Source: a virus
Strand: one strand, 5' to 3'
DNA: 24,091 bases
Virus record (IMG/VR): IMGVR_UViG_3300025282_000240
Location: 1-24,091 of that record
A program made the position numbers and the translations under genes. Below are positions 270 through 23,388 of the stretch, piece after piece. Within the stretch, counting starts at the first letter, position 1. Each line of letters opens with the position of its first letter. The notes beneath the pieces are model-generated. The model had not been told where the DNA came from and did not search any database. It saw only the letters and a program-made list of their open reading frames with translations.

Positions 270-3200
270 ATGAAATCAAAAGAATTTATAAGTTTGGTAG
301 AAACAGCAATGCAAGTCGCAATAAATGAAGATCGCATGAAGGGCAAAAAGGTCATTGTTTTTGGTATGCGGGGTAGAGTTATTAAGAAAGTCGACAGCGA
401 TGGTGACACAGAAAATGATGAAATTTATCAGGTAAAATTTGAAGATGGCACTGTGAAGAATGTTCCTGCTCGGGACATGGAAATGCAGAGTGATAAAAGA
501 GAACCTAGCGAGAATGAATTAGAAGATATTGCAAACGAATCCGTTGAACTTGATGAAGATTACAAGGAAATGATGAAGTGGTATGAGACAAGCAACGAGA
601 AGAAGGTATACGCCATTCTCAAAAAGAATAACATCAAACTCCCCGCAGAAGGGTTTACTCTTGTTCAGAACATGCTAAAGAAACATCGAGATAATGTCAA
701 GAAGGCTGCCGATGAGATTATGAATAAGCACTACCCGCACCTGAAGGAATCCGTTGATGAACTGGATGAAGCATTAGATATGAAAAAACTGCTTAATATA
801 TTTAATAAACTCAAGAAAAACGATAAAATTAAAATCAGGTTTGATTCCTCGATTCGTAAGGGAAAAGACTTTCAAACTTTTGTTGTGACAAGTCCTAAGA
901 GAACCGTAGGAAAAAAAGGGGTTGAAAGAGTTATCATGAAGCATGTCGATAACCCTAGAGGAGTAAAGTACACCCTCTACAATCGAGATGGTTCTGTGTC
1001 TCTCGCTGCCGGTGATATGGCAGTTTCTATGACTGACATTAAAGAATCCGTTGAACTCGATGAAGCAAAAAACAGAGGCAGTGAAGCATTCTGGAAAGAA
1101 ATCCATATTGAACTAAAGAAGGTAATGGACAACAAGTATTATCGTGAATTCCGATCTTCAAATGGTGGACAAGCACTCGACAATGTTATCAGTCATTTCG
1201 GAAAGCAACGAGGATGGCGTGTGGATAGGGTTGTCAAGGAAATCATTGACAAGTACGGAAGAAATCGAGATGAGTATATCAAGTTATCATTCGCAATGGC
1301 AGCAAGAAGTAGAATTCGTGAAGATGTTGAACTGGATGAGGGAAAGAGTGTGCCCGCCGCATATCGCAAGGCGTTGCAAGCCTACAAAAATAGTGATACA
1401 AAGAAAGTCTTTGACATTCTCAAGAAGAAGGGATTCCGTGGTGGACCACAGGGTGATGTTTTTGTTCGCAATATTCTTAAGAAGTACAAAGGTGATGTCA
1501 ATAAGGCAGCAAAGCATATTGAGAAGAAGTATCCTAACCTGTTCAAAGAGTCTGTTGAACTGGACGAAGCATCCTTTAAAGAAATATTATCAAAAGGCAA
1601 GAAACTCGGTGACTGGTTGGGTAAATCTTATTTTGAATATAAAGGTAATGTTTGGATGCTCAAAAGTGGCAGAGTGGTGAATCAAGGACCAGTTGCCCAA
1701 GTAAAGAAGAATTTCAACAAAGAACTACTTGGTAAACTAAAGTTTGAATCCGTTGAAGTAGAGGAAGATAAAAAGGTCACATGCCCAAAGTGTGATGGTG
1801 AAGGTTGCGAGCATTGCGACTATAAAGGATATCATATTGAATCCGTTGAACTGGATGAAATTAGGAGGACGATACCATCGGATATGCCTGATCGTAGTGG
1901 AACATTGGTTAATAAAATACTAAAAATACCAACAAAAGAACAACAAGCAGCACATGAGAAAAAAATAAAGGACGCAGCAAAGATAGCAGCAGAGAACGAA
2001 AAAAATAAAAAGAAGTGGGGGGGACTAAAGCCCACATGGTCAAGAGATCTTAAAGACTCAGTTGAACTGGATGAAGCAAAACATGAAATACAAGACTTGA
2101 TTGCAAAGTATAAAAAGGCTGGAAGAACAGCACACCATTATCCAAGAAAGAAAGAAATATCTCTTGATGGAAGAACAATGAGTAACAGTGATGCCATTAA
2201 GAAAATGAAGAAGTTGGTGGGTGATATGCCACTACGCAAGGAACCCGGTGAACTGGATGAAGTACGAAGCAATGTTTATGTGGTTACAGATAAAAACGGT
2301 AAGGTTGTTGCCGATAACTTACAGAAAGCAGCAGCAAGTGAATTTGTGAGTAACCAGTCCGCACAAAGACGAGGTACAAATCCACCTTACACAATTGTTC
2401 TTGACCCCACCGCAAAGGCTGGTCAAGTTCTAAAGAAATTTGCAAGAAAAGAGTCTGTTGAACATTTGGGTGAAGCATGGGACGAAAAAAGTGTTCAAAG
2501 AACTGCGAAGACCGGTTACGGAATCAACATGAAGGGTGGAAAATTTACTGGTAAGAAACCACCAAAGACTCCGTATGAATATATGAAAATTACCTCAAGT
2601 AGAGGTAATAACTTCAATGTGCAACTTGGTCTTGGTAAAAACAAGAAAGTCATAACTGGAACCGCCAAAAATATGGCGAACGAAATTAATAAAATATTTG
2701 GTTTCGATGAATCCGTTGAACTGGATGAAAATGGTGTTGAAATAACGCATAAAGGTTTGTGTAAAGAAGCACACCCAGATATATCCCACAAGGATTGGGA
2801 AAAAATACAAAAAGAATCTGTTGAAAAACTGGATGAAGCAGATAGACCAATGCAATTCCCCGGCAAAATAGTTGGTGGAAAGATGAAAGGCAAATTTACT
2901 AGCGCACAACTCAAACAATTGAAGGACGCATATGGCAAGATTGGTCGGGTTGATCCTTCAAGCAAATCATACGAGAAATTAACATCGTATCTTGATGGTA
3001 TGAATAAAGCACAATTAACACAACTTGTTAATGCAAAAATTCAATTCATCTCTAGTCTCGCACGCAATCGCCTTGCCAGATTGAAGATGAAATCAGAGTC
3101 GGTTGGATCCGAAGAGGTGGTATCTGGTTCTTTGAAAGAAAAAAAGAAATCAATTCGGAATATTCTAACTGCGGCTGAGTTGATACGAAAGTTTGATATG

Positions 3201-3521
3201 AAAGGTGAAGGAATTGATACCCCTGCAATAGACAGCAAAAAGTGGGGAACTCCCGGTTTCACGACAGAGGAGAATGAATCTGCAAAAGAAAAAAGAATCT
3301 TCACGCGAGGTGATTTTGTAAAAGGAAGACGAGGCTACCATAAAGACCAGGAATATGTTGTCCATACGGACCATTCTTCCGAATCTCATATGACTGTTCG
3401 TGTTCCAAGAAAAGATGGTAAAGATCGTCTGGTGCGGGTGTCAAGAAGCAACTTTAACAAAGTAAGCAATGGATTTAAGCGAAGAAGGTTTCCTGGACCT
3501 TCTCCAAAATCTCCATCCTAA
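270..3521 (+). CDS. Modular internal-head polyprotein with repeated prohead-protease sites
   Basis: This 1083-residue protein starts at ATG 270, chosen for GAGGAGA at 257-263 over an in-frame upstream start at 234 that lacks one. The N-terminus (MKSKEFISLVE, ending INE at residue 20) resembles the capsid-targeting peptides of T4 internal proteins. The remainder is a chain of mostly Lys/Arg-rich segments of about 30-135 residues joined by acidic linkers of type ESVELDE. [L/I]-x-E sites end at residues 20, 96, 167, 265, 357, 433, 530, 602, 664, 735, 820 and 856; degenerate copies (VEE, SEE) end at 499 and 949. This is the gp21 cleavage motif, so I infer maturation into about 13 peptides in the prohead. 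Segments 97-167 and 358-433 are homologous. Residues 500-530 carry a CxxCxGxGCxxC zinc motif. Segments 21-96 and about 1000-1060 look SH3/KOW-like. Individual peptide functions are unknown. Confidence 0.85.
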   Translation: MKSKEFISLVETAMQVAINEDRMKGKKVIVFGMRGRVIKKVDSDGDTENDEIYQVKFEDGTVKNVPARDMEMQSDKREPSENELEDIANESVELDEDYKEMMKWYETSNEKKVYAILKKNNIKLPAEGFTLVQNMLKKHRDNVKKAADEIMNKHYPHLKESVDELDEALDMKKLLNIFNKLKKNDKIKIRFDSSIRKGKDFQTFVVTSPKRTVGKKGVERVIMKHVDNPRGVKYTLYNRDGSVSLAAGDMAVSMTDIKESVELDEAKNRGSEAFWKEIHIELKKVMDNKYYREFRSSNGGQALDNVISHFGKQRGWRVDRVVKEIIDKYGRNRDEYIKLSFAMAARSRIREDVELDEGKSVPAAYRKALQAYKNSDTKKVFDILKKKGFRGGPQGDVFVRNILKKYKGDVNKAAKHIEKKYPNLFKESVELDEASFKEILSKGKKLGDWLGKSYFEYKGNVWMLKSGRVVNQGPVAQVKKNFNKELLGKLKFESVEVEEDKKVTCPKCDGEGCEHCDYKGYHIESVELDEIRRTIPSDMPDRSGTLVNKILKIPTKEQQAAHEKKIKDAAKIAAENEKNKKKWGGLKPTWSRDLKDSVELDEAKHEIQDLIAKYKKAGRTAHHYPRKKEISLDGRTMSNSDAIKKMKKLVGDMPLRKEPGELDEVRSNVYVVTDKNGKVVADNLQKAAASEFVSNQSAQRRGTNPPYTIVLDPTAKAGQVLKKFARKESVEHLGEAWDEKSVQRTAKTGYGINMKGGKFTGKKPPKTPYEYMKITSSRGNNFNVQLGLGKNKKVITGTAKNMANEINKIFGFDESVELDENGVEITHKGLCKEAHPDISHKDWEKIQKESVEKLDEADRPMQFPGKIVGGKMKGKFTSAQLKQLKDAYGKIGRVDPSSKSYEKLTSYLDGMNKAQLTQLVNAKIQFISSLARNRLARLKMKSESVGSEEVVSGSLKEKKKSIRNILTAAELIRKFDMKGEGIDTPAIDSKKWGTPGFTTEENESAKEKRIFTRGDFVKGRRGYHKDQEYVVHTDHSSESHMTVRVPRKDGKDRLVRVSRSNFNKVSNGFKRRRFPGPSPKSPS
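537..3116 (+). repeat. Dispersed ESVELDE linker repeats (13 copies, some degenerate)
   Basis: In-frame copies lie at 537-557, 747-770, 1044-1064, 1320-1340, 1548-1568, 1746-1766, 1839-1859, 2055-2075, 2241-2261, 2451-2474, 2709-2729, 2814-2837 and 3096-3116. Several are nearly identical in DNA; the copies at 1839 and 2709 match over all 21 bases. Spacing is irregular because the inserts differ. Ten of the thirteen end LDE, one ends LGE, and two (1746, 3096) have lost the Leu/Ile. They act as module boundaries and could be sites of homologous module shuffling. Confidence 0.92.
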
Positions 3522-3547: not shown

Positions 3548-3583
3548 AACCATTTATCCATATAAATAATATATGGAATGGTT
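3548..3583 (+). promoter_or_regulatory. Stem-loop over the start of the trypsin-like gene, with TATAAATA in the loop region
   Basis: TCCATATA (3557-3564) pairs with TATATGGA (3570-3577), and AACCAT (3548-3553) pairs with ATGGTT (3578-3583), with a TTA bulge. The outer stem contains the ATG at 3578. The perfect T4 late consensus TATAAATA lies at 3561-3568, only 17 nt before the ATG, so a transcript starting there would have almost no leader. There is no clear Shine-Dalgarno sequence. It may be a late promoter, a translational hairpin, or both. Confidence 0.5.
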
Positions 3584-4366
3584 AAGTTAAAAAGTGTATA
3601 TTTCTTAGCAACTGCATTATGGTTAGTAGGGTGTATAACTCAGACACCAATTCCACAACAAAATATAAAAGAAATAACAACAGTAGAAACTAATTCAGAA
3701 TTTCTGAAGTGGTTTGAAACTGTCAATTATGATAATGACCCATACCCAGCAGTGTGTTCGCTGTCTGATGTCATGGGGAATATCATTGGTAGCGGTGTCC
3801 TCATCGCACCGAATGTAGTGTTAACGGCTGGGCACTGTATAGATGGTATAGAGTTATCTTACGTTTCCTTTGGGAACGAAATTATCTGTATACCGGAGAC
3901 ACTGCTCCACCCAGAGTATAATCTTTTTATGCGTGTTCCCCATGACATTGGACTTCTTTTTCTAGAACATGAGGCATATGGCGTAAAACCAGTGACCATG
4001 CATAGTGGTCAGTTCATCTGTAGGTTTGCAGATATAACAACAGTTGGTTTTTCTTTTTTTTACAAAAAATATAGTAAACCCGGAGCATTTAGGTATTTTG
4101 GAACCGTACTAGAAGACATTGGTGAGATTAAATTTCTCCCCAACAAGACATCCATTTGGTATGGAGATTCTGGTGGTGCTGTGTTTACTAATTGGTATGG
4201 ACAGAAATTGCTCATCGGAATCATATCCAGTTTTATGATTATAGATGGAGAAGCGGTAGAATGTTCTGCAACAAGAGTTGATATGTTTAAACACTGGATA
4301 GAAGAGAGTATAAATAAACATGAAGGAGTTTTGGAAAACACGATTGATGCTTCTGTCAACCCCTGA
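3578..4366 (+). CDS. Trypsin-like serine protease, predicted lipoprotein
   Basis: A 262-residue protein with a short basic, hydrophobic signal and lipobox LVGC (Cys19), so probably exported and lipidated. The chymotrypsin-fold catalytic triad is complete: TAGHC with His86, HDIGLLFL with Asp123 and GDSGG with Ser198. Cys60 and Cys87 could form the disulfide usual beside the active-site His. The catalytic domain occupies roughly residues 57-245, close to the family length of about 220. It would act in the host envelope or periplasm. Its substrate is unknown; superinfection exclusion, envelope remodelling at lysis, or degradation of a host envelope protein are possibilities. It precedes a resolvase gene and two possible tiny membrane peptides on the same strand. 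Confidence 0.88.
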   Translation: MVKLKSVYFLATALWLVGCITQTPIPQQNIKEITTVETNSEFLKWFETVNYDNDPYPAVCSLSDVMGNIIGSGVLIAPNVVLTAGHCIDGIELSYVSFGNEIICIPETLLHPEYNLFMRVPHDIGLLFLEHEAYGVKPVTMHSGQFICRFADITTVGFSFFYKKYSKPGAFRYFGTVLEDIGEIKFLPNKTSIWYGDSGGAVFTNWYGQKLLIGIISSFMIIDGEAVECSATRVDMFKHWIEESINKHEGVLENTIDASVNP

Positions 4367-5074: not shown

Positions 5075-5739
5075 TGGATGTCATATCCAGACCATTTCTT
5101 ATATTGTTTACGGATGTTAGCAACTTCTTTTTGTGTTGATCTTGATTGAATTATGTTTGAAGTTCTCTTAAACTGTTTGTGGTCGATTACTTCATCGCCA
5201 TTTTTTGCAGTTTCTACACTATAGACAACTTCTTCTAGTGCTTTTTTATCTTTTCTAAATTGATATATGACAATAACAATACCAGCAAGAACACCCACTC
5301 CTGCAAATATGCCACCGAATATACCAACATGTTCCATGTATAGTGTAGCATAGGTTCCAAGTCCACCAGTGACAGCACCCATCAAGAACAACAAAGCACC
5401 CAATTTAGGATTTACAAATATTGCTATTGCAATGCCACCAATGCACAATAGTAATCCTGCGCCTGCGGTTACACTTGCAATCCAGTATAAACTTTGGACC
5501 GCTTCTTTGCGTTCTGCATCTCTAAATTGTGAGTTTTCTACTTCCAGCACTTCTACTTCATCTGCTGCAACATCTATTTGATCTGCAATTACAGGAAGTT
5601 CGTCAGGTTCCGGTATTTGACGAACTTCATCTGCAATATATTCAAGTCTTTGTGATGTATCGCCACGAACTACGATGTCTGGTATTGATTCACATGCTAT
5701 CGGGATTAAACACAATAATATAAAGAGAACTGATTTCAT
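5071..5739 (-). CDS. Predicted lipoprotein with coiled coil and transmembrane segments
   Basis: A 222-residue protein. The N-terminal signal with LIPIAC places a lipidated Cys at residue 16. An acidic helical stretch (about 30-80) follows, probably coiled coil. Three hydrophobic segments (about 86-108, 113-131 and 139-158) are separated by short turns, and the tail is basic (KKALEE to the end). It is the last gene of the minus-strand block and overlaps the preceding gene by 4 nt (ATGA). It should be envelope-bound in a Gram-negative host. A lysis role such as spanin or holin helper, or superinfection immunity, is possible but unsupported by any signature I recognise. Confidence 0.6.
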   Translation of the reverse strand: MKSVLFILLCLIPIACESIPDIVVRGDTSQRLEYIADEVRQIPEPDELPVIADQIDVAADEVEVLEVENSQFRDAERKEAVQSLYWIASVTAGAGLLLCIGGIAIAIFVNPKLGALLFLMGAVTGGLGTYATLYMEHVGIFGGIFAGVGVLAGIVIVIYQFRKDKKALEEVVYSVETAKNGDEVIDHKQFKRTSNIIQSRSTQKEVANIRKQYKKWSGYDIH

Positions 5740-6137
5740 TTATTTGTTTTTTCCTTTAGAACAGGGGGAATCAAATAAGACATGATTCCGGTTGTGCTAT
5801 CTTTTACAATTACTGGCATACCAGGATTGCGATGCGCATATGTCCTAATTGATTGGTTGTTGATATCTTCCATATTCATTTTCCGCGACCAACGTTCGTG
5901 ACGTTTTCTGCCGTGAAGACAATTGCCATATTCTTCGCTGGTGACTGTAAACACAGGACAGCCTGCAAATGTTTCGTTAGACTTTTTTTTTCTTTTAGCG
6001 GGAACTCTAATTCTATCTGCTTCTCTTCCTGCGATTTGTGGAAGGTTATCCGAAGGTGTTACGCTCTGATGCATTCCGGCAATACCGCCCCCTGCGGATG
6101 TCATTATTTCTTGTATTAATTGTTTATATGTTTTCAT
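5736..6137 (-). CDS. Conserved marine T4-like phage protein with capsid-targeting N-terminus
   Basis: A 133-residue protein beginning MKTYKQLIQE|I, the T4-type targeting peptide with an IQE cleavage site at residue 10. A Gly-rich stretch (AGGGIAGMH) and a basic patch (PAKRKKKS) follow. The C-terminal half (from FAGCPVFTV through HGRKRHERW to GIMSYLIPP) resembles a family I recall from marine T4-like myoviruses, of unknown function and probably virion-associated. Start and stop overlap both neighbours by 4 nt (ATGA), so it belongs to a translationally coupled run. No Shine-Dalgarno sequence is obvious, which fits coupling. Confidence 0.72.
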   Translation of the reverse strand: MKTYKQLIQEIMTSAGGGIAGMHQSVTPSDNLPQIAGREADRIRVPAKRKKKSNETFAGCPVFTVTSEEYGNCLHGRKRHERWSRKMNMEDINNQSIRTYAHRNPGMPVIVKDSTTGIMSYLIPPVLKEKTNK

Positions 6138-7545: not shown

Positions 7546-8022
7546 TTATTCTTCGTTGTTTGGTACAATCTTTGCATCTATTTCATATAAACCATCATCG
7601 TCTTGGAATAGATCTATTTTTAATACAAGACCTACGCCGTTATTAAATTCTGAGATGTTGTCACTCGTATAGAATCCCTGTTTAAGTAGATTATGAGTAG
7701 GAGTAGTTCCGAACGATCCACCCCACCTTTTAAGTGGAAGTTTTGTAGATTCGTCCGTTGAAAGTTCGGATGAATTGTTCCAATCAAAATCTAGACCAGC
7801 AAGATTCAGTTTATGCCGAAGTTGTGATACTGCATTTTTTGGTTCAATAAACTCTCTTTGCGTGAATGCTTTAAGGAAAGAGTTAAGACGAACCAATTGT
7901 TCTGGATGATCAACCCGATGAACACCAAAATCGCTGTGCGCGCTTCGTGCAGCACCACCAACGGTAACTTGACTTTCTGTAATGGTTGATATGTCTTCTT
8001 GCAGTTTTTTGTATGTTTTCAT
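7546..8022 (-). CDS. Capsid-targeted phage protein of unknown function
   Basis: A 158-residue protein. Start 8022 (MKTYKKLQED) is chosen because GGAG lies 7 nt upstream; an ATG at 8034 would sit in that site. The N-terminus is a targeting-like peptide with candidate cleavage ITE at residues 14-16. The body includes VTVGGAARSAHSDFGVHRV, a GSFGTTPTHNLLKQGFYTS stretch and an acidic C-terminal beta region. I recall similar proteins in marine T4-like genomes; no function is established. It opens the run of seven coupled genes reaching down to 5071. Confidence 0.65.
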   Translation of the reverse strand: MKTYKKLQEDISTITESQVTVGGAARSAHSDFGVHRVDHPEQLVRLNSFLKAFTQREFIEPKNAVSQLRHKLNLAGLDFDWNNSSELSTDESTKLPLKRWGGSFGTTPTHNLLKQGFYTSDNISEFNNGVGLVLKIDLFQDDDGLYEIDAKIVPNNEE

Positions 8023-8049
8023 AACATTCTCCATGTAGTTAACTACGAC

Positions 8050-8070: not shown

Positions 8071-11000
8071 CTACTTGAAATTTTTTGTGAATATAGAATT
8101 AATTGACATATATGGTGTGTCTTTTATATACCTTTTGAGGAGTTTTTTGGTGCCTATTTCACCCGCTCCTCCTTCTTCTTTTACAGTTTTTTGTGTTTTT
8201 AAGTGTAGGTCTAGGGGTTCCGGGGGATCGCCAATTTCCCAGCCACTATCTCTGTTTAGAGTTTTGTCAAATAAATCTTTCGTGAATGCTTTTGTTTGTA
8301 TTGGATAATCAGGGAGGGCGGAAACTGGAAATACTTTATCCTCTTCAACATAATCAGCAACCATTATTCTGAAATTTTCATCTAGATCGTTGTCTGTTTC
8401 ATTATTTTGTGCTATTTGGCGGAGGAAGTGGTTGCCATAACTAATAGGAATTTTCTTTTCTTTGCCGTTTATGGTAATGGTATTGAATTCCTTAGAATCT
8501 TCTATATTGGGGTTATTTATATTAATATCAAAGTCGTAAAGGTCTGTGAGTGAACGAGCAGCGAATTCATATGGATTTGTTAACATATCTTGTTCAATTT
8601 CTGATTTATCAATGAGTAAATTTTCTTCATTTTCTTCTACTTGTTTTGCTTGTTCAATCACAGAGAACATTTCATTGAAGCCTAATAATCTTCCGGATGA
8701 TCGAGCATATTCGTCGCCTTGGTTGGATCTGTCTTTAATTACAGTTGTTCCGTGTCCGGTAAGTTTACCAGAATCTGAAGTAATAGATGGTTGTGTAATA
8801 TCAGTGCTGAATACAGACGAACCTATACCTTTTCGTGTTTTGCCACGGAAACGGACTGATACTTTTTCGGCATATCTTGCAACTGTGGGGCTGGTGAACG
8901 GATCTTCCCCTATTTCCTCAAATGCATGTGGACTCAGCATGTGCGATGCTGCTGCTTCTGGAACACCCATTGCATCATATTTGTTTGCGCCAGTCATATT
9001 TTCATGGACCATTGCGCGAGCAAATTCTGGATTATCCTTAATAACCTTAAGAACTTCTTCAGTTATTTCTTTTTGTGCAGTATCTCGGAATTTATCATAA
9101 TCATATTCCTGTTTAATTTTTCCGCTACCGGTGAACATGTATGCCATTTTTGGATTAGCACGAACTCTATCAGCATTTTTTGAGGATACTGTTTTTGTAG
9201 GGAGATTTCCAACACGTTCAATTAACTTATCGATGACTTTTGTTTTAAATTTGGGGTCGCGTTCAAGAACAGTTTCTAATGAAGCCCTGAATCCGGCAGC
9301 AGTTGCTTTTCCTTGTTGACTTGAAAGTTGGAAAGATTTATCATTTTTTAGTGAAATTTTATACTTAATGCTGCCGTCTTCGTTTAATACTACATTGTCG
9401 GTTTTTGGTTCACCGTTTATTTGGATGCCTAATTCGTCCCAGTGGTATAGGTTATTTCTGTCTTCTTCTGGAAGTTGACCCAATGTCATTATTGCAACAG
9501 CAAACATTGCTTTACTGAAAGATAGGTTCTTGCCTCTATTGGCTTCACTTTTTCTAATGATATCATCGATACTCATTCCGCGAGATAAATCAGATGCAAC
9601 GGTTATAGCATATTCGAATTGCTTACCTTCGTTTTTATCACGAATGGTAACGTGTGCTTCCAATTCGTCCCACACATCCGATAAATCGGAAGCATTCCTT
9701 GGCTGCAATACCATTTGTGGCTGTTCCCATGCAGATGCTTCGGGATTATATGCTTGTGATTCAAACTCTGCTTGTTGTTTTTCAGTGTCTTGGTCGGCAT
9801 CCTGTTGTGTTTTAAATTCTTTTTCAGCAGTAGCAACTTGTATTTCTTTTTCTTTGGCGTTTAGGGTTGCCATGTCTGCCTGAGCCTTTGCTGTTTGTTT
9901 TTGTTCCGGACTCTGTGCTGTGCTGATTTCTTCAGATCCATCTTCACCTTTAGCACCCTTTATAGCAGTGACATCTGCTTCCCCCTTATTTCTAGTTTTG
10001 GGGCTTTCTTTTGATGGTGTAATCATTTTCTTTGCGGTTACTGTCCACACCCAATCGTCCTCTTGTGCAGCAGAACCAGCAGAACCGCGAGAAGGCTTTT
10101 CGTTTTCTATATCATAATCTCCATGCGTAAGTTCATCTTTATGGATGAGCATCATCTTCCCTTTGTTTTTTCCTCCTGTTGGTCGGACAAGTTTAAGATC
10201 ACTCCACCGAGGCTTACCGCCCACCTTTTCTGCTTCTCGTTCTGCTCGCTTTCTTGCAGAATCTCTTTGTTTGGGGTTTTCTATTCCAGTTCCCTTTGCA
10301 AATTCTTTGTCCTTGAGCCTCCGGGTTGCTTCTTTTGCTTCCTTTGCTTCAAGCAAGAAATTACCAAACACATCATCAACACTTTCTAGTGCTTTTACAG
10401 GATCATTGGTTGTCATCCGAGATCGGACTTTTTCTAGTCTTTCTTTTTCTGCTTTATGCATGTTAGGCATCATCCTTTTTGCTATTCTTGCAATGATCTT
10501 TTGCTTCTTCTTTATTTTGGCATCAATTTTTTCACGTTGCATGAAGGGGAGGTCTTCCCATTTCATACCTTTAATTAATTTTTGTCTCACTTTTTTTATT
10601 GCTTCTTTTTTTGCTTTTGCGGCTAATTGAGTTTTGCTTTTTCGCTGTTTTTCTTTTCTCTTGCGACTCCTTGCACGCTTCTTGGCGGTTCGTTTCATTC
10701 TTCTAGAAAGTTTACGTCGGTTTTGCGCCGAAATTTCAGTCAACAACAAATCAGATTCTATTGATAAAACTTTACCAGATTCACAAAACTCCTCAAATTC
10801 ATTAAAATTGAACCATGATTCTTTAATTTCACCACGAACTCCCATACCTTTTCTTATTGCTTTAAATAATCCTAATACATCTTTTTCAGAAATGTTGGAT
10901 GGTATTCCTAACCGAAATGCACTGAGATTTCCTTCTGCTGCCGCCGCACGCATTTTAGATGCAGACATACCCGCAACGCCTTCTGCATCTGGATCTCTTT

Positions 11001-11391
11001 CCCCGGCAGATATTACTTCAAATTTAGAGAATTTAAATTCCTTCTTAGGTCCAACATATCTACCAACAGATCGTTTAAATTCGTTTACTCTATCCGAACC
11101 CACAACCATAGTAACTTCATCATATCCTGCATCGCTAAGTTGTTTTAACACAACAAATGGGGTGTTATGTTTTTTATTCACAATTATATTAAATCCTCTA
11201 AGAAGTTTCTTCATATAACGAAATTTGTCTGTAGAGGATAGGGGATTTTTCTTTTTGTCGGTAGTGCTACTTCCAAATATGGTATGTTCAGCATCTCGCC
11301 GTCTTGCTTCCTCTTTGACTCGGGTAGCAAGTAGTAAATGTCCAGTAGTGGGAGGATTGAAACGTCCAAATGTGAAAACCATCTTTTTCAT
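8071..11391 (-). CDS. Nucleotidyltransferase-headed large virion core protein with internal cleavage sites
   Basis: A 1106-residue protein. ATG 11391 is chosen because CGGAGA lies about 10 nt upstream; the earlier in-frame start at 11451 is not supported. Residues 1-185 form a cytidylyltransferase-like domain: FTFGRFNPPTTGHLLL carries a T-x-G-H form of the HxGH nucleotide site, and GMSASKMRAA (142-150) matches the ISxTxxR-type motif, so NMN- or pantetheine-phosphate adenylyltransferase chemistry is plausible. LLTE|I ends at 219 and LLE|A at 348. They bound a very basic helical segment (RRKLSRRMKR, KKRARSRKRK) seen, as I recall, in marine T4-like phages. A Gln/Ala/Glu-rich coil (about 510-590) and an unrecognised C-terminal region (about 600-1106) follow. 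I infer a prohead cargo fusion trimmed into at least three parts. Confidence 0.75.
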   Translation of the reverse strand: MKKMVFTFGRFNPPTTGHLLLATRVKEEARRRDAEHTIFGSSTTDKKKNPLSSTDKFRYMKKLLRGFNIIVNKKHNTPFVVLKQLSDAGYDEVTMVVGSDRVNEFKRSVGRYVGPKKEFKFSKFEVISAGERDPDAEGVAGMSASKMRAAAAEGNLSAFRLGIPSNISEKDVLGLFKAIRKGMGVRGEIKESWFNFNEFEEFCESGKVLSIESDLLLTEISAQNRRKLSRRMKRTAKKRARSRKRKEKQRKSKTQLAAKAKKEAIKKVRQKLIKGMKWEDLPFMQREKIDAKIKKKQKIIARIAKRMMPNMHKAEKERLEKVRSRMTTNDPVKALESVDDVFGNFLLEAKEAKEATRRLKDKEFAKGTGIENPKQRDSARKRAEREAEKVGGKPRWSDLKLVRPTGGKNKGKMMLIHKDELTHGDYDIENEKPSRGSAGSAAQEDDWVWTVTAKKMITPSKESPKTRNKGEADVTAIKGAKGEDGSEEISTAQSPEQKQTAKAQADMATLNAKEKEIQVATAEKEFKTQQDADQDTEKQQAEFESQAYNPEASAWEQPQMVLQPRNASDLSDVWDELEAHVTIRDKNEGKQFEYAITVASDLSRGMSIDDIIRKSEANRGKNLSFSKAMFAVAIMTLGQLPEEDRNNLYHWDELGIQINGEPKTDNVVLNEDGSIKYKISLKNDKSFQLSSQQGKATAAGFRASLETVLERDPKFKTKVIDKLIERVGNLPTKTVSSKNADRVRANPKMAYMFTGSGKIKQEYDYDKFRDTAQKEITEEVLKVIKDNPEFARAMVHENMTGANKYDAMGVPEAAASHMLSPHAFEEIGEDPFTSPTVARYAEKVSVRFRGKTRKGIGSSVFSTDITQPSITSDSGKLTGHGTTVIKDRSNQGDEYARSSGRLLGFNEMFSVIEQAKQVEENEENLLIDKSEIEQDMLTNPYEFAARSLTDLYDFDININNPNIEDSKEFNTITINGKEKKIPISYGNHFLRQIAQNNETDNDLDENFRIMVADYVEEDKVFPVSALPDYPIQTKAFTKDLFDKTLNRDSGWEIGDPPEPLDLHLKTQKTVKEEGGAGEIGTKKLLKRYIKDTPYMSINSIFTKNFK

Positions 11392-12030: not shown

Positions 12031-13242
12031 TTACCCCTTCACCCAATTTTTTGCAAGATTGAAATTTGCTCTACTAAATTCAAGTCTGTCCACAATTTTT
12101 ATTGCTTTGTTAGAAATATGGTCAACGGCAACAAATCCTTCTGGTTTGGTTACGTTGAAACCTTTTGATGTTTGAACGAAGGTTCCAATAGAGTTGACCG
12201 ACTCAAGTTTCCGCAAAAGAAGGATTTTTCCTTTTATAAGAGTAGAGTGCAGAGAAAAGAGAGAATCCATTTGCTTATTTTTGGAGTTAAGATAACTTAC
12301 CACCTCGTCCCGTGCTGATTCTCTTCTTTTGATTGCAGCATCTGTCGTAACTGAACCCATATCTTTCCCTATTTTGTCATTTATCCAAATTATAAAATCC
12401 TTATTGGAAAGAGTGGTTGTTCCTTCTTTTACCTTTGAGTTAACGTATATATTCAGGTACTTAACAATTTTTGTTTGATCTGCTAAATCGTTCATAAAAG
12501 ATTTGGAAGATTTTAAATCTTGCTTTGCCTGAGAGATGATACTATCCAATGTAGAGGATTCTGATGCAGTAAGAGTAGCAGAACCACTTATGTCTCTAAA
12601 TGAAGCATCATCCACCCACACAGAGCGATTCCTCTTTAAACTTTTAACATTTGCACCGAATGTTGCTGTTAGGTTAGACATTTTTCTGCCGCCATAGGTG
12701 GTATGAAAAACTATTCCCATTTTAGCAGAACCAATTTTCTTACCTAGTTCTGAATTCACGGGAACTGCATATGTAATAGTGTTTGGGTTAAATGTGTAAT
12801 GAGACACACCATCTATATTTTTTGTTCTAATATCACCCGGTCCGAACATCATATCACCTTGTATTATACCTCTAATTGGAAGTTTTTTAAGATATTTAAG
12901 TGCAGCAGCAAGTTTATCTCCAAGTCCAGATGAGTGATTTTTTCTAATGTCTGCAACTGTGTAGTTTATTTTTGGAGTTTTATTGAATATACTTTTAGAC
13001 CCAACAAAAAATTTACCATTTTCTGGATTGGTTCCACAGAATATGGCAGGTGCGCCATCCCATTTAACCGTTGCATTTATTTTGGAGTTTGTGTTACCGT
13101 CAAGCATCTTAGCAATTTCTTCTAGAAAAGAAACTGCTTCTGCTGCTCTGCTGCTGCCTTCAAACACTAAATCTTCTATATGAGTAAGATGGGTATTTTT
13201 GGTGGATTTTGCTTCTTGAATATATTCTAAGTAGTTGTTCAT
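12031..13242 (-). CDS. KWDG-motif protein of marine T4-like phages, nucleotidyltransferase/ligase-like
   Basis: A 403-residue protein beginning MNNYLEYIQE|A, a capsid-targeting-like peptide with an IQE site at residue 10. The body matches a family I recall in marine T4-like myoviruses: THIEDLVFEG, VKWDGAPAIFCGTNP (Lys60), FFVGSKSIFNK, GIIQGDMMF and YTFNPNTITYAVPV. Known: the family is usually annotated as a domain of unknown function. Inference: KWDG resembles motif I (KxDG) of the DNA/RNA ligase superfamily, and the C-terminal PEGFVAVD plus IKIVDR (368-385) resembles motifs IV (EGxV) and V, so a ligase or adenylylating activity carried in the capsid is possible. It overlaps the upstream exonuclease gene by 4 nt. 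Confidence 0.75.
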   Translation of the reverse strand: MNNYLEYIQEAKSTKNTHLTHIEDLVFEGSSRAAEAVSFLEEIAKMLDGNTNSKINATVKWDGAPAIFCGTNPENGKFFVGSKSIFNKTPKINYTVADIRKNHSSGLGDKLAAALKYLKKLPIRGIIQGDMMFGPGDIRTKNIDGVSHYTFNPNTITYAVPVNSELGKKIGSAKMGIVFHTTYGGRKMSNLTATFGANVKSLKRNRSVWVDDASFRDISGSATLTASESSTLDSIISQAKQDLKSSKSFMNDLADQTKIVKYLNIYVNSKVKEGTTTLSNKDFIIWINDKIGKDMGSVTTDAAIKRRESARDEVVSYLNSKNKQMDSLFSLHSTLIKGKILLLRKLESVNSIGTFVQTSKGFNVTKPEGFVAVDHISNKAIKIVDRLEFSRANFNLAKNWVKG

Positions 13243-18770: not shown

Positions 18771-19277
18771 TCAATATCCGGTTTGCCTGGTCAATGCTTT
18801 ACCAACTGCACTAGCACCTTTTTTAACGGCTTCTGCAAGTTTCTTGACTGTCTCACCAAATGCTTCATGGAGATCTTTCACATCATGAAATGCATTTATG
18901 ATGTCGTCAGTAGAAGTATCTTCAGTTAATTCTCCACCAAAATAAGACTCAAGATATTCATAGATTTCTTCTAAATTATCTTCGTTGTTGTTTACCATAA
19001 AATCATCAATTAAATCAACCGAATAAGATAAACATTCAAATGCTTCATAGACATCATCAATGGAGATATCATCTTTTTCCATAACATCACATGTAAATTC
19101 TAAAAGGGCTGTTCCAACATCAGTTGTGAATAATGCATCCAAAACTTCTGATTGATTCTCTTCTGGTGTGATTGCATCTGGTGTGATTGCATCTACTTTT
19201 CTTTCATTTATTTTTTGAACCCGTTCAACAGATCCATGTATGTCGCTCAGATATTTTTTATACTCGTTAATATTCAT
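18771..19277 (-). CDS. Acidic YFGGELTE-module protein, putative cleavable head protein
   Basis: A 168-residue protein with AGGAAGGA before its ATG. The leader MNINEYKKYLSDIH... reaches KINE|R (residue 26), a candidate prohead-protease site. The middle is strongly acidic and helical. Residues about 108-140 (YLESYFGGELTEDTSTDDIINAFHDVKDLHEAF) are homologous to the N-termini of the proteins at 22167, 22492 and 23056. The end is a short basic amphipathic helix (VKKLAEAVKKGASAVGKAL). A 15-nt tandem repeat encodes DAITP twice. The acidic-then-basic layout and the LTE site suggest an assembly/core or cargo protein. Confidence 0.68.
   Translation of the reverse strand: MNINEYKKYLSDIHGSVERVQKINERKVDAITPDAITPEENQSEVLDALFTTDVGTALLEFTCDVMEKDDISIDDVYEAFECLSYSVDLIDDFMVNNNEDNLEEIYEYLESYFGGELTEDTSTDDIINAFHDVKDLHEAFGETVKKLAEAVKKGASAVGKALTRQTGY
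19162..19191. repeat. 15-nt tandem repeat encoding DAITP twice
   Basis: Two exact adjacent 15-nt copies (TCTGGTGTGATTGCA) lie in frame in the 18771-19277 gene, probably produced by replication slippage. Confidence 0.9.
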
Positions 19278-19354: not shown

Positions 19355-19945
19355 TCAATCAATTTCTAATTGTGCAAGATATTCAAGATCTTTATAGAAA
19401 TCTATGCCTGGCGGATCTTGTAGAATTTCTTCATCAATTTCTGGACACAATCTCACAAATGAATCTTTTAATATAGTTCTTGGTTGTGCTATTTTTGCAA
19501 CTTCAAAATAATCTATGAGCAATTCATCGCCTTCAAGTATATCTTTACTGGTTGTAATGTATAAATCACCATTATGTTCTTGTAGTTTTACGTTTGGATT
19601 TGTTGAGTGGTTGGTAAGCCGGGCGACATCAGTTCTCACATAGTCGTTGTGTTCTGTTTGCAACGATTGTAAATATAAACTTATAGGCGTATTAACGGGC
19701 GTGTCTTCTGTAACAAACACACCCATTCCGTGGATGTTTGATTCTTTGATTGTCAAGAGTGGGTCGTATGAATCACGAAGTTTTGGGAGTTTCAGGAGTC
19801 TTATTGAAGTTGATATAATTTTAGGTGTTAGAAGTGGTTCCAATTCTGTCCATTTTTTTGGTTTGCCCTTGGGTACAGTCTTTTTCTTGGCACCATTTTT
19901 TAGTTCATTAGCAGTCTCTAATAAAATATTTACTATTTGTTCCAT
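19355..19945 (-). CDS. SET-domain protein (putative protein-lysine methyltransferase) with capsid-targeting-like leader
   Basis: A 196-residue protein. ATG 19945 is chosen because AAAGGAGAT lies about 9 nt upstream; a start at 19966 would overlap that site. The leader MEQIVNILLE|T ends in an LLE site (residue 10), followed by a basic linker (KNGAKKKTVPKGKPKKW). The SET core is recognisable: SNIHGMGVFVTED (70-81), a RTDVARLTNHSTNPNV motif with NHSxxPN (112-118), YITTSKDILEGDELLIDY (EGDExxxDY, 138-146). Known SET enzymes use S-adenosylmethionine to methylate lysines. There is no post-SET Cys cluster. If packaged, it could enter the host with the DNA; targets are unknown. Confidence 0.8.
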   Translation of the reverse strand: MEQIVNILLETANELKNGAKKKTVPKGKPKKWTELEPLLTPKIISTSIRLLKLPKLRDSYDPLLTIKESNIHGMGVFVTEDTPVNTPISLYLQSLQTEHNDYVRTDVARLTNHSTNPNVKLQEHNGDLYITTSKDILEGDELLIDYFEVAKIAQPRTILKDSFVRLCPEIDEEILQDPPGIDFYKDLEYLAQLEID

Positions 19946-20760: not shown

Positions 20761-21138
20761 ATGAAAACATTTAAGCAATACACCACAGAATCCTCGCTGG
20801 GTGCTGCAAAACAATGGCGAGCGGCCGACCCAAAGGCATCTACCAACAAGTTAGTCAAACGGTTGCGACGAATAAAATTAATGGATAAGAGAGATCAAGT
20901 GAGGGGAGTTCAAGCAACCACCAGAGCATTCCAGTCTAAAAATCCCAAGGTGGTCGCCAAAGAAAACCGAAGAGCAAACGCCCTCAGAAAACAACGTCAA
21001 GTGATGAAAAATAGGTTGGGTGGATTTGCATTCACAACAATGCGGCCGCTTAGTGATAAGGATGTAGATAGAGCAATTGATCTAGAGACAGATAATAAAA
21101 GGTCAATGTCCTCTAGTATGAGAGGGAAAGGGCGATGA
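20761..21138 (+). CDS. Capsid-targeted basic internal protein (first of a pair)
   Basis: A 125-residue protein with AAAGGTGT before its ATG. The leader MKTFKQYTTE|S closely matches T4 internal-protein targeting peptides; TTE replaces the usual [L/I]-x-E. The rest is extremely rich in Lys/Arg (LVKRLRRIKLMDKRDQ, ENRRANALRKQRQ) and ends SMRGKGR, as expected for a DNA-associated capsid protein. Its stop overlaps the next ATG (ATGA), so the two are translated together. The 20624-20760 region before it shows only an AT-rich segment (ATATATAGG near 20690), perhaps a promoter. Confidence 0.75.
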   Translation: MKTFKQYTTESSLGAAKQWRAADPKASTNKLVKRLRRIKLMDKRDQVRGVQATTRAFQSKNPKVVAKENRRANALRKQRQVMKNRLGGFAFTTMRPLSDKDVDRAIDLETDNKRSMSSSMRGKGR

Positions 21139-21482
21139 AAACATTCCAGCAATACATCACAGAACTGAAGGTGCCTAAACGATTTGAAAAGAAAAAAATT
21201 AAAGCACGAAAACTAGCAACGGGCAAATTAAGAACAGAAATAGAAGCAGACCTAAAAACGACTAAGCCGCCATTGTTGCCTGGTATGGAAGTTCCACCCC
21301 GATCAACCGTGGAATATAGCAAACAAATAGACCGGCTATACAAGAAAGAAAAAGGTCAAAGAAGAGCCGCAGAAAAGCCAAAAATAAGCAGAAGGCAAAA
21401 AAGAATAATAAAAAAAACCACTCCCACTCAAGGTGAGTTAGATTTTGCTAAAAGATACAGATGGCCGAGAAAAGAGAGATAG
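21135..21482 (+). CDS. Capsid-targeted basic internal protein (second of a pair)
   Basis: A 115-residue protein beginning MKTFQQYITE|L. The leader is nearly identical to that of the preceding gene at protein and DNA level, with a proper ITE site at residue 10. The body is very basic (KRFEKKKIKARKLATGK, ISRRQKRIIKKT, RYRWPRKER), with a short Pro-rich stretch (PPLLPGMEVPPRS). The bodies of the two proteins do not look alike, so the leader may have been duplicated or exchanged independently. Probable internal head protein; GAGGGAAAGGG is its ribosome binding site. Confidence 0.75.
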   Translation: MKTFQQYITELKVPKRFEKKKIKARKLATGKLRTEIEADLKTTKPPLLPGMEVPPRSTVEYSKQIDRLYKKEKGQRRAAEKPKISRRQKRIIKKTTPTQGELDFAKRYRWPRKER

Positions 21483-22166: not shown

Positions 22167-22457
22167 ATGAACAACGAAGAAATTGTATACGGGTTTTTAT
22201 CAGAATACTTTGGCGACGGACTAAACGAAAATGTCACCGATGATGATATTGTTGATGTTATTTGTGAGTTAAACGAATTGTGTGATGCAGTAAATGAGTA
22301 TTTTGGTTTATATGAATATGAAGATGAAGGTATGATGGACTTTAATGCCCCTGCAACAGCACATTCTTTTAACACAGCAAAAGCGGATGCTGAAAAGAGA
22401 AAATATCGGGTTTCTAAAAAAGGACGGGGTGGTGGACATCTATCTAAAGAAGGTTAA
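22167..22457 (+). CDS. YFGDGLNE-family small protein
   Basis: A 96-residue protein. The N-terminal 45 residues (FLSEYFGDGLNENVTDDDIVDV, then LNELCDAVNEYF) are homologous to modules at 18771-19277, 22492-23010 and 23056-23388. GLNE|N is a candidate prohead-protease site. The C-terminal part switches to basic and Gly-rich (EKRKYRVSKKGRGGGHL). Acidic module plus basic tail suggests an assembly leader joined to cargo. Function unknown. Confidence 0.65.
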   Translation: MNNEEIVYGFLSEYFGDGLNENVTDDDIVDVICELNELCDAVNEYFGLYEYEDEGMMDFNAPATAHSFNTAKADAEKRKYRVSKKGRGGGHLSKEG

Positions 22458-22491
22458 GGAATATTTTAGGATCAACAACGGAGAAACAGAA

Positions 22492-23010
22492 ATGAATCAA
22501 ACAGTATTAGAATATCTTGAAGATTACTTCGGTGATGAACTCAATGAGTCTACATCAGATGAAGACATTATGGAAGCGTTTGTCGGCCTCTTAGAAATTG
22601 CTGATGCAGTTGAGGAATGGTTGAATGAAGCGCAATATAAGGCAGGGACGGCAACCGGTCGCGGCACAACTAACCCAGACTTAAAGCCGAAGTCGAAAAC
22701 GACTAGCGGGCCCGCAACGAACAGAATAATGAACACCCGAGTCAGCGAAATTACACCTTCTATGAAAGCGGCTGCAAGCAGAGAGCAAATTGCAAGGGCG
22801 AGGGGCAAAGCGAAGGCAGATCAACAGCGTGCTAACCGAAACCAAAGGGGAGGGTTGAATGAAGCAAGCCCGAGGCCTTTAGCAGGGGCAGAAAAGTTGG
22901 TGCAATTAATTGCAAATAAGAAAAGAAGTGAAAAGGAAAAAGAAGAAGAAGAAGAAATGACCAAAGAAAATTATATGGCTGAGTATACATCAAGACTTGC
23001 TAAGCCTTAG
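22492..23010 (+). CDS. YFGDELNE-family protein with basic tail and several LNE sites
   Basis: A 172-residue protein. ATG 22492 follows CGGAGA about 9 nt upstream; an in-frame frame opens earlier at 22345 but overlaps the previous gene. The leader (residues 6-45, YLEDYFGDELNE|STSDEDIMEAF) is the shared module. LNE sites follow at EWLNE|AQYK (about residue 45) and GGLNE|ASPR (about residue 123), the Ala in each fitting the gp21 preference. Between them lies a very basic stretch (ARARGKAKADQQRANRNQRGG), so cleavage would release a compact basic peptide of about 78 residues. The tail has an EEEEE run. Confidence 0.72.
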   Translation: MNQTVLEYLEDYFGDELNESTSDEDIMEAFVGLLEIADAVEEWLNEAQYKAGTATGRGTTNPDLKPKSKTTSGPATNRIMNTRVSEITPSMKAAASREQIARARGKAKADQQRANRNQRGGLNEASPRPLAGAEKLVQLIANKKRSEKEKEEEEEMTKENYMAEYTSRLAKP

Positions 23011-23055: not shown

Positions 23056-23388
23056 ATGGAACAAGCAATATTAGACTATTTAGAAGGTTACTTCGGTGAT
23101 GAACTCAACGAGTCTACTGACGATGACATCATGAATGCATTTACTGAATTGCTAGAGACTGCTAGTGCTGTTAGAGATTTTATTGGTGAAGCCAAGAAAC
23201 CGAAACCATTGGAAAAAGATTCAGCAAAGAGAGATCTCTTGCAGAGGCACCATGACAAGATGGCTGAGGCACGAAAGAAACGAGATCTACATCAAGGCCC
23301 CGAAGCCGCAAAGAAACAAAAGAATATAAATTCGGATCCTCCGGATCCGGAAGCCTTAATAAAATTATTCCAGAAGTATCGTAAATAG
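23056..23388 (+). CDS. YFGDELNE-family protein with basic tail
   Basis: A 110-residue protein with AAGGGAGAA before its ATG. The N-terminal module (YLEGYFGDELNE|STDDDIMNAFTELLETASAV, then FIGE|A) is nearly identical to that of 22492-23010, also in DNA. The C-terminal 70 residues are basic and unrelated (KRDLLQRHHDKMAEARKKRD). It is the last gene of the plus-strand run, with its own late promoter and a strong terminator. It may be capsid cargo. Confidence 0.72.
   Translation: MEQAILDYLEGYFGDELNESTDDDIMNAFTELLETASAVRDFIGEAKKPKPLEKDSAKRDLLQRHHDKMAEARKKRDLHQGPEAAKKQKNINSDPPDPEALIKLFQKYRK

Follow-up and report, generated by a model that had tools for sequence, protein, structure and literature searches.

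Exchangeable modules on candidate protease-site linkers: a putative head polyprotein of a T4-like phage

Polyproteins processed into functional units are a hallmark of RNA viruses. The 24,091-base IMG/VR record analyzed here (the whole stretch, hereafter ‘the window’) encodes on its + strand a 1083-aa protein, P0001, in which 14 segments are joined by 13 short linkers, raising the question of what such a chain is for in a phage. In general terms, P0001 is probably a late polyprotein for the head of a T4-like (Kyanoviridae-like) phage, cut at its linkers by gp21 into modules that are most likely delivered to the host. Independent evidence from sequence comparisons supports a head polyprotein that serves as substrate of a gp21-type protease; the first-pass observation holds, and its interpretation is supported in part. 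The same domains recur in other orders in related phages, which makes the gene look like a swappable kit of small proteins for the virus head, probably destined for host delivery. The open-access literature yielded no account of such a multi-domain cargo string in tailed phages.

A string of folded modules

The P0001 gene (270–3521) runs from an ATG at position 270 to a stop codon at 3519–3521, the coordinates and length already given correctly by the first-pass annotation, and is preceded by a GAGGAG stretch resembling a ribosome-binding site. The 13 linkers were defined by sequence, and the majority read ESVELDE or a one-step variant of it. Eleven end in L-x-E (10 LDE and one LGE), including variants with a one-residue insertion, while ESVEVEE and ESVGSEE have no L or I at P3. 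The chain holds 17 [LI]xE sites overall: two in the leader (LVE11 and INE20), 11 at linker ends, three directly before a linker (LKE, IKE, and IRE), and a single LKE away from linkers, at residues 955–957. The 11 internal sites counted at first pass correspond to these linker ends.

Chance composition is excluded as the source of the linkers. LDE occurs 10 times against 0.36 expected, a count reached in none of 20,000 protein shuffles, and VELDE occurs seven times against 0.002 expected, again with 0/20,000 shuffles. The total number of [LI]xE sites is just mildly high (17 versus 10.1 expected, reached in 364/20,000 shuffles) and would not convince by itself; the signal therefore lies in the linkers rather than in overall abundance.

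The segments were described at first pass as dissimilar and mostly basic. Basic they are, strongly so in 11/14 cases (the exceptions being segments 1, 7, and 12), but the second and fifth are homologous, with 41% identity. Homologues were sought module by module, as single-linkage clustering merged unrelated families via unsplit segments. All modules lie on the + strand. M01 (330–557) is acidic and is homologous to the last module of the relative L006, to a region close to the L038 N-terminus, and to short proteins in record G001 (L141). M02 (558–770) and M05 (1341–1568) are the homologous pair. M03 (771–1064) is present in at least 336 viral contigs. The homologue of M04 (1065–1340) is the first post-leader domain of L007, and M06 (1569–1766) occurs twice in L098. 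M07 (1767–1859), a small CxxC zinc-ribbon-like peptide, is matched by homologues in numerous phage proteins, among them S-CAM9 gp096. M10 (2262–2474) is related to L047, which belongs to a head cassette, to L006, and to a short G001 protein; M11 (2475–2729) has homologues between linkers in L006 and L024. A Rhizobium phage homologue of M13 (2838–3116) is flanked by a 354-aa gene on one side and the gene for the tail sheath on the other. Per-module searches found no homologue for the basic M08 (1860–2075) and M09 (2076–2261) or for the short M12 (2730–2837). M14 (3117–3518) is the basic C-terminal segment that carries the lone [LI]xE away from linkers.

The first-pass annotation had proposed structure prediction of the segments, and AlphaFold2 returned folded domains for both modules modeled. 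M03 (29 sequences) is predicted as an α+β domain with a mean pLDDT of 78, flanked by linkers below 50; M05 (7 sequences) is predicted as a four-helix domain with a mean pLDDT of 84, followed by a disordered C-terminal linker. The modules thus resemble individual folded beads on disordered linkers. Neither M03 nor M05 had a significant structural match in fold searches: the best hit for M03, a Klebsiella phage KP15 protein, had an E value of 0.03, and UBA-like matches for M05 had E values above 4.

Candidate cleavage sites are depleted inside module cores. M03 cores contain no [LI]xE against 14.5 expected, a figure that is descriptive because family members are not independent. Window cores contain one against 4.6 expected (4% of shuffles are as low), and all linker proteins together contain 27 internal sites against 38.8 expected, a mild depletion, perhaps because some linkers in this wider set escape the pattern.

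Head-gene context, targeting leaders, and the fate of the modules

P0001 has only sub-threshold matches in Pfam and NCBIfam, which were not used, and its PHROG matches are families of unknown function. At curated Pfam/NCBIfam thresholds, no domain, enzymatic or otherwise, was recognized; neither database gave a match to the IPI–III or Alt families, and P0001 has no gp67-like domain (phrog_1064). About 21 loci among the matches listed, some of them near-duplicates, have linker genes in or beside the portal–gp21 (gp20–gp21) slot, which in T4 holds gp67/gp68, and three of the linker proteins (L023, L093, and L108) begin with the PHROG ‘prohead’ domain phrog_1064, followed by ESVELDE and further sequence. 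In many other loci, linker genes adjoin genes for DUF6267 and cytidylyltransferase proteins; the window follows this arrangement, its polyprotein gene lying outside the gp20–gp21 slot and on the same contig as DUF6267 and cytidylyltransferase-like genes. Separately, the slot-linked proteins L028, L047, L086, L080, L035, and L067 share a C-terminal domain (MPVDINIDGNIIHVTPDISE...LHDELNEDNQ).

The proposal made at first pass depended on a prohead protease in the genome. The gp21 family (Peptidase_S77, PF03420) was not found in the smaller fragments searched, including this 24-kb contig, but is present in 8/8 records of at least 96 kb whose loci carry the linker or related proteins; these comprise six IMG/VR contigs and two isolates, one of which, S-CAM9, is related through a module but lacks the ESVELDE linker itself. 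T4 gp21 cleaves after L/I-X-E (PMC9026906). All gp23 homologues with a readable N-terminus carry L-x-E at the expected maturation site (e.g., FLAE-APTNA, LLGE-AAPTN, FLSE-AAPTN, ALME-TPANA, and ALQE-QANN), a candidate site placed by analogy with T4. The window also shows an excess of T4-type late promoter motifs, but these stand too near start codons to be trusted.

The N-terminus of P0001, MKSKEFISLVETAMQVAINE (270–329, + strand), resembles a T4 capsid-targeting sequence. It begins MKSKEFISLVE-T and continues to INE-D, so the targeting-like leader noticed at first pass is borne out as a pattern match. In T4 internal proteins, targeting leaders span 10–19 residues (PMC9026906). Similar leaders are found in 20/46 linker proteins versus 24/440 background ORFs (5.5%), and T4-like leaders also stand on 25/27 neighboring DUF6267 proteins (e.g., MKSYKQFINE and MKGFTQFIAE). 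Small proteins at 5736–6137, 7546–8034, 20761–21138, and 21135–21482 of the window also start with T4-like leaders (MKTYKQLIQE, MKTYKKLQE, MKTFKQYTTE, and MKTFQQYITE).

Among the neighboring genes of the window, the DUF6267 protein (12031–13242, minus strand) has the leader MNNYLEYIQE and a KWDG motif like motif I of ligases and nucleotidyltransferases; it is possibly a head-packaged enzyme. The 1106-aa protein encoded at 8071–11391 (minus strand) starts with a cytidylyltransferase (NMNAT-like) domain, which leads into a strongly basic region and then ~700 aa of uncharacterized sequence. Its homologues were detected by mass spectrometry in virions of S-SM1 (PMC3037559), S-CREM2 (PMC10665884), and S-SCSM1 (PMC9602691), with the authors’ caveat that carry-over after CsCl purification is possible; the S-CREM2 homologue begins MKNFSSFLTE. 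No proteomics of a phage carrying a long linker polyprotein was found in the open-access literature. Paralogous small proteins sharing YLExYFGxELNEST-DDDIMEAF are encoded at 18771–19277, 22167–22457, 22345–23010, and 23056–23388, as well as at 640–1194 of the near-identical contig L004; several have a basic tail after LNE-A or IGE-A, and they may form another head-cargo set with a longer targeting domain. A SET domain at 19355–19945 (Pfam E 3e-9) marks a possible lysine methyltransferase. In L004, a 386-aa signal-peptide protein (1633–2793), whose end falls at the window’s left edge, precedes the polyprotein; it had no Pfam match and is porin-like by its N-terminus only.

Based on these features, the life of P0001 can be rationalized as follows. 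The T4-type N-terminal leader would take the 1083-aa chain into the prohead core, where the activated gp21-type prohead protease would cut after the Glu of (L/I)-x-E linkers, as in gp23 and gp22, and free around a dozen small domains, intact and for the most part basic, within the head. Convergent sequence evidence supports the cutting and location steps. The modules would then remain with the DNA inside the capsid and, like T4 internal proteins, most likely pass into the host along with it, a delivery that is probable by analogy with T4. We infer that cleavage, packaging, and injection follow one another in this way, with the modules made in equal stoichiometry and perhaps acting as effectors.

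A few features sit uneasily with this reading: the two linkers without L/I at P3, the [LI]xE inside M14, the depletion of internal sites that is only mild across all linker proteins, the lack of gp21 on this 24-kb fragment, and a second serine protease encoded next door. In addition, fragments of the T4 core proteins gp22 and gp67 mostly exit the head (PMC9026906), so the pieces of P0001 could be discarded as well. The main rival explanation is built on this precedent and casts P0001 as an enlarged prohead-core protein, an analogue of gp67/gp68 whose gp21-generated pieces leave to make room for DNA, with no delivery; the relatives in the portal–gp21 slot and their gp67-like N-termini fit it. 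We nevertheless consider it unlikely. The candidate sites lie between conserved folded domains and are absent from M03 cores, and the diverse, exchanged domain repertoire is more like variable cargo. T4 core proteins are acidic, unlike most P0001 segments.

Linkers as candidate cleavage sites and points of exchange

The first-pass annotation suggested looking for the linker pattern in other genomes, and a back-translated version of it matches at least 120 viral contigs. At least three linkers occur in each of 32 non-redundant proteins among the matches listed, and some of these proteins exceed 1400 aa. Two near-identical contigs, L004 and L005, carry the polyprotein gene, and L006 encodes a 566-aa version in the same gene neighborhood, followed by a trypsin-like gene and a RuvC-like gene. 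Relatives also occur in isolates, all annotated as hypothetical: Caulobacter phage Cr30 gp64 (682 aa) has repeated segments between LxE sites, and a cytidyltransferase gene lies two genes away; in Melnitz methylophages, M03 follows EEIEIDE; and phiM12 gp58, encoded in the portal–gp21 interval, aligns with the N-terminus of the L034 polyprotein.

Comparing these loci reveals module-sized DNA exchanges bounded by linkers, with changed module order. The counterpart of window module 1 stands last in L006, where module 2 (window 530–770) is 95% identical in DNA versus about 69–78% for the other shared modules, with both ends of the 95% block falling in linkers. L025 has window positions 747–1066, around M03, in common at 86% DNA identity, and the two copies of M06 in L098 are 80–81% identical in DNA; both stretches end at linkers. 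At the sequence level, this shuffling of modules between phages at linkers is the strongest feature of the locus, and one that was invisible at first pass. The linkers are near-identical in DNA as well as protein, with exact matches of 21–23 bp across contigs. Being so alike, they would let recombination swap, duplicate, and rearrange whole modules from phage to phage, with folds and processing undisturbed. Ends of high-scoring segment pairs also fall near linkers more often than at random (33–34% versus 12–13%), an enrichment that is partly circular because the linkers are alike, so the argument rests on the DNA-level swaps and on the following test of the flanks of M03.

A profile of M03 built without its linkers identified 336 viral loci, and flanks were scored in the best 80 of at least 336. 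Over 44 non-identical contexts from these, [LIVF]xE lies upstream in 42/43 and downstream in 41/44, against a background of 23% elsewhere in the same proteins; as with the core sites, these are descriptive figures for family members that are not independent. The linkers flanking M03 vary by clade, with forms such as ESVELDE, ESVNE (ESVNEA), ITDALVE (EITDALVEG), and WELDE (WELDEM), so the conserved element is hydrophobic-x-Glu. Of the aligned linkers, 78% retain the P1 Glu, and gaps make up about half of the remainder; identity in the flanks, by comparison, is 45%.

This pattern bears on a second alternative, namely that P0001 is an uncleaved multidomain chain whose linkers are flexible spacers conserved mainly as recombination points. 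The near-identity of linker DNA and the swaps that end there are what such a chain would be expected to show. We find it distinctly improbable, however, since the same module in other clades has different linkers that keep only hydrophobic-x-E, the P1 Glu is better conserved than its surroundings, and the one-residue-insertion linkers of the window retain L-x-E. Lastly, a trypsin-like serine protease with TAGHC and GDSGG motifs is encoded at 3578–4366 (+ strand), directly 3′ of the polyprotein gene; it likewise directly follows linker genes in L006, L038, and L049, and lies near a single-module protein in G001 (L141). It is very unlikely to be the processor in place of gp21, despite this position, as its lipoprotein-type signal probably places it outside the cytoplasm, relatives occur in only eight of the sequences compared, most linker loci have none nearby, and the linker sites match gp21 sites in gp23, with gp21 itself in every one of the large records.

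Comparison with known systems

What is new in P0001 is its organization: a string of exchangeable folded modules in which a candidate protease-site linker doubles as the exchange point. Whether T4-like phages at large share a pool of small head-cargo domains, traded singly at protease-site linkers and delivered as a cleaved cocktail, i.e., a combinatorial polyprotein arsenal, we judge to be evenly balanced. If the reading of P0001 given here is right, one sequence signature would mark many small head proteins that lack annotation in phages abundant in aquatic habitats, and the processing of these proteins would be directly testable by mass spectrometry. It would also explain the quick change of internal-protein repertoires in T4-like phages and suggest a natural linker for loading several proteins into one capsid.

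The closest parallels are T4 IPI–III and Alt, which likewise have a leader ending in (L/I)-x-E, small basic proteins, a gp21-type site, and a late head context. As the first-pass annotation remarked, T4 spreads this over separate genes, and its internal proteins are indeed encoded separately, each with a short leader that is removed, whereas here one gene holds ~14 modules between repeated sites. Similarly, T4 gp67 and gp68 (and gp22) resemble some relatives of P0001 in their location between gp20 and gp21, a gp67-like N-terminal domain, and several gp21-type sites per protein; in P0001, by contrast, the sites part folded, exchangeable domains on a repeated linker. The inner-body and ejection proteins of phiKZ and SPN3US are cut several times per protein after a short Glu-ending motif, packaged, and ejected (PMC10052503). 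Their processing is mainly the removal of N-terminal propeptides, with an A-x-E motif in SPN3US, and shuffled domain strings were not reported there (PMC10052503). Finally, the polyvalent proteins of phages and plasmids also have many domains per chain and are predicted to be packaged and injected (PMC5512222). Unlike P0001, in which almost all junctions are candidate gp21 sites, they carry enzymatic domains, and some bring their own peptidase (PMC5512222).
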